A DNA stretch of 64,000 bases from Roseovarius lutimaris. GTDB taxonomy: Bacteria; Pseudomonadota; Alphaproteobacteria; Rhodobacterales; Rhodobacteraceae. Positions within the stretch are counted from its first letter, which is position 1. Every line of letters begins with the position of its first letter. The translations under genes were made by a program, and so were the position numbers. Location: contig NZ_FOVP01000013.1 in assembly GCF_900115165.1 (NCBI RefSeq), positions 1 to 64,000 on the forward strand, given 5' to 3'. The notes beneath the pieces are model-generated. The model saw only the letters and a list, made by a program, of their open reading frames with translations, made no database searches and was not told the DNA's origin. Shown here piece by piece: positions 19,649-55,078 of the stretch.

Positions 19649-19858
19649 ATGAGCCTCAACATTTGCGCCCCAGCCCGGCCCGGCACCCTGCCCCGCGTGC
19701 AGATTGCCCTGCGTGACATGATGGCGGTCTGGAGCCAACGCCGTACCTTACGCGCGTTGGACGACGCCGCGCTTGCCGATATCGGCCTGAGCCGCCGCGA
19801 GGCCGAGCGTGAGGCACGCCGCCCGTTCTGGGATCTGCCTGCGCAAATCTGCCGCTAA
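19649..19858 (+). CDS. DUF1127 small protein
   Basis: A 69-residue protein whose C-terminal half carries the DUF1127 motif (RTLRALDDAALADIGLSRRE: aromatic/Arg helix, L-x-D-x-x-L-x-D-I-G-L). DUF1127 proteins are small, basic and common in alphaproteobacteria; one, CcaF1 of Rhodobacter sphaeroides, binds RNA and acts in sRNA maturation. ATG 19649 follows GGAAAGGAACAG. It is one of four DUF1127-type genes in this window (also at 34498, 34910 and 54072). Confidence 0.85.
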   Translation: MSLNICAPARPGTLPRVQIALRDMMAVWSQRRTLRALDDAALADIGLSRREAEREARRPFWDLPAQICR

Positions 19859-34497: not shown

Positions 34498-34725
34498 TTA
34501 ACCGGGCAGGATATCCTCGAACACAAAGGCCGGGATATCCTTGTGCATAAGCCCCATCGCGGCCAGTTCGCTATCGCTCAGGCTGTACATTTCTACTAGG
34601 CTGGCAAGGCGTTTGCGGCTTATCATATAGCCATTCATCCCGGCCGCATGTTCGGCCAGAAACAGATCCAGATCGCGCCGCCATGTGACTGGCAGAAATC
34701 GGGTGTGCAGGTCTTGGTCGGCCAT
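34498..34725 (-). CDS. DUF1127-related small protein
   Basis: A 75-residue protein whose C-terminal half (SLVEMYSLSDSELAAMGLMH) matches the DUF1127 pattern, with an atypical, less basic N-terminus. ATG 34725 is fixed by AAAGGGGTTCC just upstream. It lies 185 bases downstream of another DUF1127 gene on the same strand, with a terminator and a CTGC-N3-GCAG palindrome in the gap. No function can be given beyond family membership. Confidence 0.72.
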   Translation of the reverse strand: MADQDLHTRFLPVTWRRDLDLFLAEHAAGMNGYMISRKRLASLVEMYSLSDSELAAMGLMHKDIPAFVFEDILPG

Positions 34726-34829
34726 TCGGAACCCCTTTCGTCGGATCGTGTGACGGATTCCTCCCTGAGGGGAATATAGGGCAGTTCTGTCCGAATTTCT
34801 TGCGGGAAGTGAAACGGTCGGTAAAGTGT

Positions 34830-34844
34830 TGCTGCATTGCAGCA
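34830..34844. promoter_or_regulatory. Candidate PhaR operator
   Basis: TGCTGCATTGCAGCA, a near-perfect palindrome containing CTGC-N3-GCAG, the published recognition pattern of the PHB-responsive regulator PhaR. It lies about 105 bases upstream of the DUF1127-related gene 34498-34725. A similar palindrome is at 53946, also before a DUF1127 gene. Confidence 0.45.
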
Positions 34845-34848
34845 TAAA

Positions 34849-34881
34849 ATAACCCCGACGGGATCGACCCGTCGGGGTTAA
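34849..34881 (-). terminator. Rho-independent terminator of the upstream DUF1127 gene
   Basis: AACCCCGACGGG (34851-34862) and CCCGTCGGGGTT (34868-34879) make a perfect 12-bp stem. On the minus strand it is followed by TTATTTTAT. Confidence 0.85.
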
Positions 34882-34909
34882 AGTTCCGGCCTGCCGGGGT
34901 CTGTCGGCG

Positions 34910-35131
34910 TCAGGCGTAAAACAGGTCCTTGAAGACATGATAGGCAATATCGTCGCGGCGGATGCCCATGGCTGCTAGCTCTGCGTCGGATTTTGCTTCC
35001 AGCGCTTCGATTCGGTTGCGGCGTGATGTGACCTGGCTGTGACGCTCAAGGCCACGCGCCAAGGCCGCTGTGAATTTTTTCCAGCCGTCGCGCAGGGGCG
35101 ATGCCGGGATGTTCGTTGTAATGTTCGCCAT
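34910..35131 (-). CDS. DUF1127 small protein
   Basis: A 73-residue protein, MANITTNIPASPLRDGWKKF onward, with the DUF1127 signature in RIEALEAKSDAELAAMGIRR followed by DDIAYHVFKDLFYA. ATG 35131 is preceded by GAGGTTTCC. It has its own strong terminator, so it is separately transcribed from the neighbouring DUF1127-related gene. The shared ending (ELAAMG, F-F/V-D-L) suggests the pair arose by duplication. Confidence 0.82.
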   Translation of the reverse strand: MANITTNIPASPLRDGWKKFTAALARGLERHSQVTSRRNRIEALEAKSDAELAAMGIRRDDIAYHVFKDLFYA

Positions 35132-38540: not shown

Positions 38541-38578
38541 AAAAAAAGCCCCGACGCGGTCAAGCGAAAGAGGGCTTT
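38541..38578 (-). terminator. Intrinsic terminator, expression platform of the SAM-II riboswitch
   Basis: Read on the minus strand, AAAGCCC (38578-38572) and GGGCTTT (38551-38545) flank a 20-base loop, and a run of T follows to 38541. It stands between the aptamer and the metZ start. Confidence 0.8.
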
Positions 38579-38585
38579 CATCCTG

Positions 38586-38641
38586 ACCTCTTTAGCGGTT
38601 TGTTTAACGTGGCCCGCAATCCGGTAACAAATCGCCACGGC
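38586..38641 (-). promoter_or_regulatory. SAM-II riboswitch (metA-type)
   Basis: The minus strand reads CCGTGGCGATTTG, then ACCGGATTGCGG, GCCACGTTAAACAAACCGC and TAAAGAGG. CGTGG pairs with CCACG (P1), GATTTG contributes to the SAM pocket, and the 3' GCTAAAG strand closes the H-type pseudoknot. This matches the SAM-II consensus common upstream of met genes in Rhizobiales and Rhodobacterales. It is followed by a terminator and metZ. The very similar SAM-V class is the only close alternative. Confidence 0.85.
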
Positions 38642-38727
38642 TATCGGATTACCGCGCACCGCCACAGGCGTCAATACTGGCAAGCAGGTTTCTCGCAGGC
38701 GTCACCACGGCCAAGCGCGCTCCCGCT

Positions 38728-53823: not shown

Positions 53824-53945
53824 GATCATTCCTTTCGCAACAGCGCCTCAATAGGTGGCAGTTTCTGCTCTAAGCGCAAGGCCTGCTCGAACTGCCTTGA
53901 AAATCCAGGAATTGCTTAACGTTAGGTCAGCTTTCCTTATGCATT

Positions 53946-53960
53946 TGCTGCATAGCAGCA
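53946..53960. promoter_or_regulatory. Candidate PhaR operator
   Basis: TGCTGCATAGCAGCA contains CTGC-N3-GCAG, the PhaR recognition pattern, and is a near-perfect palindrome. It lies 112 bases upstream of the CcaF1-like gene; a CTTGAAA (53896-53902) that could be a heat-shock -35 box lies just before it. Confidence 0.45.
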
Positions 53961-54071
53961 TTGCCAAACTCGGGTATTGTGCATCCGCAGCAAAAGCGTA
54001 TCTTAAACTCAACAAAGGCGAAAAAGAACATCGCCGAACGCGAACAACCCTGAATACGCAAGGAGCCGAAG

Positions 54072-54296
54072 ATGGCAATTGCAGTCGACACACGCCGCGC
54101 CACAGCGCACCACCTGAGCGAAGACCTGAGCGTCGCCGTTTATGCTGCAGTGCAGCGCGTCGTAAACTACCGCGCCTACCGTCGCACGATCCGTGAACTG
54201 TCAGAGTTGAGCAGCTATGACTTGGCTGATCTTGGCCTGCACCGCAGCGAGATCCGCCGGGTCGCACACGAATCAGTTTACGGCACGCGTCCGTAA
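54072..54296 (+). CDS. DUF1127 protein, CcaF1-like, host gene of CcsR sRNAs
   Basis: A 74-residue basic protein. Residues about 25-70 carry the DUF1127 unit (VNYRAYRRTIRELSELSSYD then LADLGLHRSEIRR) with an Arg-rich helix suited to RNA binding. In Rhodobacter sphaeroides the homologous gene (RSP_6037, CcaF1) is co-transcribed with four stress-induced CcsR sRNAs and its product binds RNA and helps their maturation; the same arrangement is seen here with the sRNA hairpins starting 7-12 bases after the stop. RBS AAGGAG 6 bases before the ATG. A PhaR-like palindrome and a CTTGAAA box lie upstream. Confidence 0.85.
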   Translation: MAIAVDTRRATAHHLSEDLSVAVYAAVQRVVNYRAYRRTIRELSELSSYDLADLGLHRSEIRRVAHESVYGTRP

Positions 54297-54302
54297 CACA
54301 GA

Positions 54303-54384
54303 GATCGGATGTCCTTCTCCTCCTCCCTGGGACATCTGAAACGGTCAATGGCTTCTTTCCTCCTCCCTGAGGCCTGAGACCGGA
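54303..54384 (+). ncRNA. CcsR/cuckoo-type sRNA, copy 1 (two CCUCCUCCC stem-loops)
   Basis: Stem-loop 1: GATGTCC (54308-54314) pairs with GGACATC (54330-54336), loop TTCTCCTCCTCCCTG. Stem-loop 2: GGTC (54343-54346) and GGCTTC pair with GAGGCC and GACC (to 54381), loop TTTCCTCCTCCCT. Two adjacent hairpins with CCUCCUCCC in each loop are the definition of the CcsR/cuckoo RNA family, and the position behind a DUF1127 gene matches. The loops can mask Shine-Dalgarno sequences (GGGAGGAG); in R. sphaeroides targets include C1 metabolism and pyruvate dehydrogenase genes. Confidence 0.87.
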
Positions 54385-54414
54385 CAATTGGGGCAAACTG
54401 CCCCCACCGATTGC
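54385..54414 (+). other. Spacer hairpin between the two CcsR-like RNAs
   Basis: GGGGC (54390-54394) pairs with GCCCC (54400-54404) around AAACT, with CAAT/ATTG extending the stem. It lacks the CCUCCUCCC loop. It may separate the RNAs for processing or stabilise the first RNA's 3' end. Confidence 0.5.
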
Positions 54415-54496
54415 CAACGACCCTCTCCTCCTCCCTGGGTCGGACGCAGATAGAACGGCGGCGCCTCTCCTCCTCCCTGGCGTCGCCGTTTTTTCG
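54415..54496 (+). ncRNA. CcsR/cuckoo-type sRNA, copy 2 (two CCUCCUCCC stem-loops)
   Basis: Stem-loop 1: CGACCC (54418-54423) pairs with GGGTCG (54437-54442), loop TCTCCTCCTCCCT. Stem-loop 2: AACGGCGGCGCC (54454-54465 region) pairs with GGCGTCGCCGTT (54479-54490), loop TCTCCTCCTCCCT, followed by TTTTTT, so it is also the transcription terminator. The two loops repeat those of copy 1. R. sphaeroides has four such RNAs at this locus; only two are seen here. Confidence 0.87.
54453..54496 (+). terminator. Rho-independent terminator of the DUF1127-CcsR transcript
   Basis: The last CCUCCUCCC stem-loop has an 11-12-bp GC-rich stem and ends in a run of six T. It doubles as the 3' hairpin of the second sRNA. 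Confidence 0.85.
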
Positions 54497-54779: not shown

Positions 54780-54881
54780 CTTAAGACTACTCCCCGGCCA
54801 CCCCCCGGGCCGGATGGGGCAGGGATTGGACCGGGACAGGGCGTGTCGGCACCCGCCCGCACCGCCCCCCGCGGTTTGACG

Positions 54882-55078
54882 TTGCACCAAGGCTGGTTTC
54901 CGGACTTGGGGGATGGACCAGATTATCCGACCCTGCGTTTTGACACCTTCCCAGACCCAATTCCGGCCCAGTGGTCTTTCGTCAAAGCGCCCTCCCTTAC
55001 CGTTGCGGGGGCAGCGCCGGAGTTGCACCGGCTTCCCAATTCTCCGCCAAAAGCGGCACCAAGGTAATGTGAACCTAA
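54882..55078 (-). promoter_or_regulatory. Cobalamin riboswitch
   Basis: The minus strand carries the conserved blocks in order: GGTTCACATTACCTTGGTGC (P1 side), GGGAAGCCGGTGCAACTCCG, GCGCTGCCCCCGCAACGGTA (the B12 box core), GACCACTGGG, GGGAAGGTG, and CAAGTCCGGAAACCAGCCTT closing with TTGGTGCAACG. All are hallmarks of the AdoCbl riboswitch. A GC-rich stretch between it and the gene start could form the expression platform. It controls the 89-aa gene at 54510-54779. Confidence 0.93.

Follow-up and report, generated by a model that had tools for sequence, protein, structure and literature searches.

The association of a short DUF1127 gene with small RNAs (sRNAs) is a known kind of system, described in the CcaF1, CcsR and NfeR1 literature. 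In Rhodobacter (Cereibacter) sphaeroides, an RpoHI/RpoHII promoter is reported to drive cotranscription of ccaF1 (RSP_6037) and CcsR1-4, the latter being encoded in the 3' UTR of the gene. Maturation involves RNase E and CcaF1, and this gene order is known as the CIN1 locus (PMC10253847, PMC8625941). The CcsR1-4 RNAs are reported there to target the flhR mRNA (PMC8307010). As for transcription of this operon, only sigma factors are named in the text available (PMC10253847, PMC8307010). CcaF1 is described as binding RNA and other DUF1127 proteins as acting via protein contacts, and the role of RNA binder is presented as debated in the available part of the source (PMC12501420).

A second set of systems is known from rhizobia and Brucella. 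The anti-Shine-Dalgarno (aSD) loops of NfeR1 from Sinorhizobium meliloti silence ntrB by pairing at the translation start, and NfeR1 is activated by the LysR-type regulator LsrB, which binds a TGCA-N6-GCAT site located at -72 to -60 of its promoter (PMC10746234). VtlR, the Brucella counterpart of LsrB, activates three DUF1127 genes and AbcR2, with CAATGCAGCCATGCA as its published motif (PMC12595884). In B. abortus and A. tumefaciens the box takes the form GCAT-N3-TG-N3-T, and the gene order trxB-vtlR is described as well conserved in Alphaproteobacteria (PMC7486931). Activation by regulators of the VtlR/LsrB kind is reported for DUF1127 genes and AbcR2 (Brucella), for sRNAs (Agrobacterium) and for NfeR1 (Sinorhizobium).

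In this study, we analyzed a stretch of 64,000 nucleotides of the Roseovarius lutimaris genome (hereafter the window). The analysis extends to a marine genus a stress-RNA system known from work on R. sphaeroides, yields a short list of candidate target genes and draws attention to a conserved control region with two boxes. Should a LysR-type sensor of redox state or nutrients be confirmed at this region, two regulons studied separately would join. Roseovarius was not found in the papers listed by a literature search on such systems; the sizes of the arrays or the conservation of their promoters may already be covered by earlier work (Reinkensmeier and Giegerich 2015; Billenkamp 2015; Gruetzner 2021).

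A DUF1127 gene is followed by an array of four motif hairpins

A first-pass annotation, made from the sequence alone, had proposed two CcsR/cuckoo-type RNAs downstream of a CcaF1-like gene. The sequence supports both elements. The gene (54072..54296, + strand) encodes a 74-aa protein matching PF06568 (E 4.2e-14; 52.4 bits for a cut-off of 23.3), and it lies directly upstream of four motif hairpins on the same strand, as in the CIN1 and CcaF1-CcsR arrangement. We consider it very probable that the locus is a DUF1127-CcsR operon of the CIN1 type in a Roseovarius-type bacterium, encoding trans-acting sRNA units. Among named loci, the closest by DUF1127 protein are those of Roseovarius gaetbuli (91% identity) and R. 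marisflavi (89%).

The motif CCTCCTCCC occurs four times in the window, at positions 54319, 54359, 54427 and 54469, always on the + strand and nowhere else; 0.63 occurrences are expected, and none of 100 shuffles reached four. The first loop motif lies 22 nt past the DUF1127 stop and all four lie within 181 bases of it, in keeping with the claim of four stem-loops within 200 bases. At the scale of the 4.28-Mb genome, four of the seven occurrences of CTCCTCCCTG are at the array. The 204 bases past the stop have a predicted fold of -85.8 kcal/mol (z -5.1), equalled by none of 200 shuffles, in which each motif is placed in a hairpin loop, several motif hairpins being adjacent as in cuckoo RNAs. 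Cuckoo RNAs have two to four hairpins. Here, predicted hairpins 1 (54306..54338, +) and 2 (54342..54382, +) form one pair, and hairpins 3 (54418..54442, +) and 4 (54454..54494, +) form the other. A motif-free hairpin, GGGGCA-AAC-UGCCCC (54390..54404, +; TGCCCC in the DNA), stands between the two pairs. Hairpin 4 runs into TTTTTT and is, as proposed, a predicted terminator. The single loop sequence claimed for all four hairpins held for loops 1, 3 and 4; loop 2 reads TTCCTCCTCCC and not CTCCTCCTCCC, its first bases being TTCCTCC instead of CTCCTCC. An Rfam search, suggested as a check, gave no match to the array at the gathering threshold. The same search found a Cobalamin riboswitch (RF00174) on the opposite strand shortly past the array (54874-55078, -) and a SAM_alpha riboswitch (RF00521) at 38571-38648 (-).

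A profile search of the genome for DUF1127 gave four matches in total, and at the three other loci CTCCTCC is present once, with no array. One DUF1127 profile match lies at 19712. By eye, a DUF1127-like ORF in 34498-35000 adjoins the palindrome TTGCTGCATTGCAGCA at 34829-34844, with the end of a second DUF1127-like reading frame on the other side of it; the ORF in 34498-35000 had no Pfam match at E 1e-5.

Stems covary while the loop motif is retained

A lack of covariation of the four stems among related genomes had been named as refuting the first-pass reading, which withstood this test. We aligned 24 loci of genus relatives, selected for having four hairpins. Double-sided changes were found in 22 of the 42 base pairs, against a mean of 13.4 in shuffled alignments that do not keep kinship among loci, and none of 500 such shuffles reached 22. 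The covariation score was 0.439 versus 0.232 after shuffling and at most 0.134 with slid partners, and 95.7% of alignment cells were paired. All five helices showed double-sided changes: 7/10 pairs in hairpin 1, 6/10 in hairpin 2, 3/5 in the spacer hairpin (84.2% of cells paired), 3/5 in hairpin 3 and 3/12 in hairpin 4. Across the same 24 loci the loop motifs did not vary, apart from a single base in a single row. Stems that vary around a motif that stays are a mark of the cuckoo family. In NfeR1 / alpha-r14 of Sinorhizobium, an identical CCUCCUCCC aSD motif is reported to lie likewise in the unpaired part of each hairpin, with differing stems. NfeR1 is described there as having three hairpins and its own sigma-70 promoter, whereas the Roseovarius locus has hairpin pairs after a DUF1127 gene.

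Arrays vary by hairpin pairs in the genus and family

To describe the distribution of such arrays, we searched for CCTCCTCCC-N15-45-CCTCCTCCC, which was detected in 63 of the 84 genus genomes and 295 of the 394 family genomes; the reversed pattern also occurs in some genomes, usually with fewer occurrences. Within the genus, motifs recur about 22, 62, 130 and 172 nt past the DUF1127 stop. Two pairs are the usual state, with gains such as three pairs at one locus (L059) and a repeated hairpin at another (L091). Some genus relatives carry motif copies with changed bases. A DUF1127 protein search was done on the 21 genus genomes lacking an exact motif pair and four others, including the R. lutimaris genome itself, and the protein was matched in 21 of these 25 genomes. 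Of 25 DUF1127 matches in this set (the window's own excluded), 20 were followed by motif hairpins with at most one changed base, in one case at a distance of over 300 nt; two had no following motif hairpin, and in three the motif expression missed the gene.

Hairpins were counted in 80 named loci, taken from 224 as those most similar to the query. The loci fetched for this work are partly redundant: L013 and L096 represent the same array, L293 and L296 come from a single strain, and both L048 and L101 are the window itself. In 79 of the 80, an array of 2 to 11 hairpins follows the DUF1127 gene. The most frequent numbers in these best 80 of 224 loci were six (31 loci), four (20) and eight (15); nine and ten hairpins were each found three times, three and five each twice, and zero, two, seven and eleven each once. 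An even number was present in 70 of 79 arrays (p 8e-13, kinship ignored). The 400 motif spacings measured fall mainly at 35-49 nt (252) and 60-79 nt (134). The two spacing classes, together with the even numbers, are the pattern expected from sequence for two-hairpin sRNA units of a CIN1 locus and bear out the proposed pairing as two sRNAs of two stem-loops each. At this level of comparison, the arrays show a hairpin pair that behaves as the apparent unit of array growth. A TTTT run lies close past the last stem in 66 of the 79 named arrays.

The first-pass annotation had also held that array copy number evolves, and that the intervening non-motif hairpin sets this locus apart from Rhodobacter. 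The former is borne out by the 2 to 11 hairpins above and by one genome (G165; L096 on contig C1) with 26 exact CCTCCTCCC motifs, the first of them 21 nt past the DUF1127 match; much of this array consists of nearly identical three-hairpin repeats about 140 nt long. The latter did not stand. Two pairs are usual in the genus, and in 141 gaps between pairs the predicted fold is more stable than that of mononucleotide shuffles (median z -2.1, with 91% of gaps below -1). Such gaps also fold into hairpins in Cereibacter johrii, C. ovatus and Luteovulum azotoformans, so that a spacer hairpin belongs to the usual design and is not a difference from Rhodobacter. The R. sphaeroides locus, with four units where Roseovarius has two, was represented in the comparison by its close relatives C. 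johrii (L293/L296) and L. azotoformans (L299). These have the same layout with spacer hairpins; L293 and L299 each carry eight exact motifs, and a VtlR-like box precedes the start codon by 131 nt.

The pair layout is not universal, some family members having motifs evenly spaced at about 40-60 nt (G373 and G241 matches). Among 73 fetched arrays with at least three exact motifs, 64 had a DUF1127 match on the same strand within 700 nt upstream; in the other nine, no upstream match was found by tblastn at E 1e-3.

Predicted action of the array and candidate targets

By analogy with R. sphaeroides, a single transcript from a predicted promoter at about 53977-54004 would comprise the DUF1127 mRNA with a 3' UTR that holds two sRNA units, both made of two hairpins, and the motif-free spacer hairpin between them; the last hairpin would end transcription. 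This transcript would probably be cut by RNase E, helped by the DUF1127 protein, into the mRNA and two sRNAs. The CCUCCUCCC loops would then pair with Shine-Dalgarno sites of the GGGAGGAG type and block translation, and the repressed genes would mainly encode exported solute-binding proteins and periplasmic oxidoreductases. We infer in this way that the Roseovarius locus is transcribed and processed and represses targets.

The candidate targets come from a search of the genome for GGGAGGAG-N3-10-ATG, which gave 13 sites versus three for the reversed pattern. Three of the 13 are copies of one repeat, one precedes a 39-aa frame, and nine precede ORFs of at least 60 aa. An N-terminal hydrophobic segment (mean at least 1.5) was present in eight of these nine ORFs versus six of 24 controls (p 0.0015), the controls being ORFs of at least 60 aa after AAGGAGG, for which 30 of 79 sites were fetched in contig order. 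Signal peptides called by eye gave a similar picture, with 8/9 (seven without the short L133) versus 3/24 controls (p 1e-4 or 8e-4). Pfam analysis of eight candidate target ORFs identified two DctP proteins, one Peripla_BP_6, a phosphonate-binding protein, a sulfide dehydrogenase flavoprotein, a molybdopterin oxidoreductase and a CO-dehydrogenase-type flavoprotein, the last having no hydrophobic segment; one ORF had no match. The complementarity of the loops to Shine-Dalgarno sequences, noted earlier, thus stands by sequence, with a predicted target class, mostly exported proteins, that is narrower than the broad translational control read from it. This result is a bias of predicted sites in one genome against one control and not proof of regulation, and there could be other reasons why strong GGGAGGAG sites go together with exported proteins.

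Two conserved boxes upstream of the DUF1127 gene

The region upstream of DUF1127 is strongly conserved in 28 loci of the genus. In the window it contains a predicted -35 element TTGTGC (53977..53982, +), conserved in named loci, and a predicted -10 element TATCTT (53999..54004, +), which would place the transcription start near 54011. Of 79 named loci, 65 have TTGTGC-N15-18-TATNTT, and their spacer is invariably 16. Two boxes, with no strand assigned, accompany this promoter. Box 1, TGCATTTGCTGCAT (TGCA-N6-GCAT, a T-N11-A dyad; 53940..53953), lies at about -71 to -58 of the predicted start, close to the -72 to -60 placement of such sites in the LsrB/VtlR regulon. Box 2, TGCATCCGCAGCAA (TGCA-N6-GCAA; 53980..53993), follows 40 bp after box 1 and overlaps the -35 element. 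In 76 of 79 named loci the 260 nt preceding DUF1127 include a TGCA-N6-GCAT sequence, versus 0.2% of shuffles. The box pair is present in 68 of 80 named loci, at a distance of 40 bp (58 loci), 39 bp (nine) or 46 bp (one), and none of 4000 shuffles had a pair at 30-55 bp. What is new here is this pair of putative boxes of the TGCA-N6-GCA(T) type, set at a distance of 39-40 bp, of which box 2 overlaps the predicted promoter.

In sequence, the boxes resemble the sites of LysR-type LsrB/VtlR regulators. The strand opposite 53949-53963 agrees with the published VtlR motif, CAATGCAGCCATGCA, at 13 of 15 places, and the best upstream match to this motif has at most three mismatches in 75 of 80 loci, versus 10 of 1600 shuffles; it is on the minus strand in 77 of 80 loci. 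TGCA-N6-GCAT is also the sequence reported as bound by LsrB at NfeR1 (PMC10746234). Other results speak against such a regulator: the GCAT-N3-TG-N3-T form described for B. abortus and A. tumefaciens is absent from the window, which reads GCAT-N3-AG-N3-T (it is present in 8 of 79 named loci), and by eye no LysR-type ORF was seen beside trxB in the 7 kb around it. At fewer than two mismatches, CAATGCTGCTATGCA has no other site in the genome.

A search for a specific class-wide box, whose result also speaks against this reading, did not find one. CAATGCNGCYATGCA occurs in 60 of 385 alphaproteobacterial genomes, with 73 sites versus seven for the reversed pattern. Thirty loci were fetched out of these 73 sites, one per genome and excluding the window's own family; in these, CAATGCNGCYATGCA lies inside an open frame of at least 97 codons, and none has a DUF1127 gene within 500 nt downstream by a motif expression that can miss genes.

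More weakly than for the action of the array, we infer control through the two boxes by a LysR-type activator of the LsrB/VtlR kind. In its widest form, this would mean that such an activator switches on the Rhodobacteraceae DUF1127-CcsR operon via two sites 39-40 bp apart, and that the rhizobial LsrB/VtlR and the CcaF1-CcsR circuits share one alphaproteobacterial origin as branches of one old circuit, whose output strength would be set by how many whole hairpin pairs are gained or lost, with as many as 26 hairpins in one genome. We put this forward tentatively, as a possibility that we would not yet favour. Among the papers listed by a literature search, none mentions VtlR together with CcsR1 or CcaF1; LsrB and CcaF1 co-occur in one of them, PMC12501420, whose single mention of LsrB is in the reference list.

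Alternative explanations

Could the hairpins act only in cis, by stabilising the 3' end of the DUF1127 mRNA and ending transcription, the loops being sites of self-control by the DUF1127 protein? The position of the genus array, 10-200 nt past the stop codon and ending in a predicted terminator, agrees with such a role, as does the RNA binding reported for CcaF1. A role in cis, however, needs no loops that match Shine-Dalgarno sequences and hardly change while their stems do, and in R. sphaeroides the CcsR RNAs are reported as separate sRNAs with mRNA targets (PMC8625941, PMC8307010). We regard a purely cis-acting array as quite improbable, and prefer the reading of the locus as an operon with trans-acting sRNA units.

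For the upstream region, the loci compared come mostly from one family, so that another DNA-binding protein could explain the conservation. One candidate is PhaR, a sensor of polyhydroxybutyrate. TGCTGC-N3-GCAGCA, which we take to contain a PhaR-type site, is present at three places in the genome: at 53946-53960, at 34830 of the window, and before a phasin-type gene by a phaC-type gene (by eye). Against PhaR, one relative (L085) has a broken CTGC-N3-GCAG dyad and an intact ATGC-N7-GCAT dyad, and two boxes 39-40 bp apart fit the paired layout of LysR-type regulators. A literature search with word-start matching, in which "phar" also matched other words, showed none linking PhaR to DUF1127 among the papers listed. 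Binding of PhaR to the conserved region is thus unlikely in our view and ranks below a LysR-type activator. Apart from the operon, TGCTGCACCGCAGCA was seen by eye between the phaC-type and phasin-type ORFs, near a phaR-type ORF (L206, about 1501-1515, which is contig C39 of the R. lutimaris genome, 45439-45453), and is likely a PhaR site.

Other motif sites in the genome

The three CTCCTCCCTG sites outside the array comprise two that are antisense to GGGAGGAG before an ATG and one hairpin at the end of amtB. This single CCTCCTCCC hairpin (L098, about 1030-1060; L144, which is contig C40 of the R. lutimaris genome, from 21836) holds the amtB stop codon in its 5' arm and is followed by a separate terminator. 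Of 30 amtB loci fetched from the genus, 29 were readable and five of these had the exact motif at the amtB end; several more had a C/T-rich loop on a similar stem. Being located at a gene for an ammonium transporter, the amtB hairpin may represent a cuckoo-related RNA with one hairpin. Finally, GGGAGGAGTTTGCGCCAATG occurs three times in the genome with identical flanks (L132, L137, L139), these copies probably belonging to a repeated mobile element.
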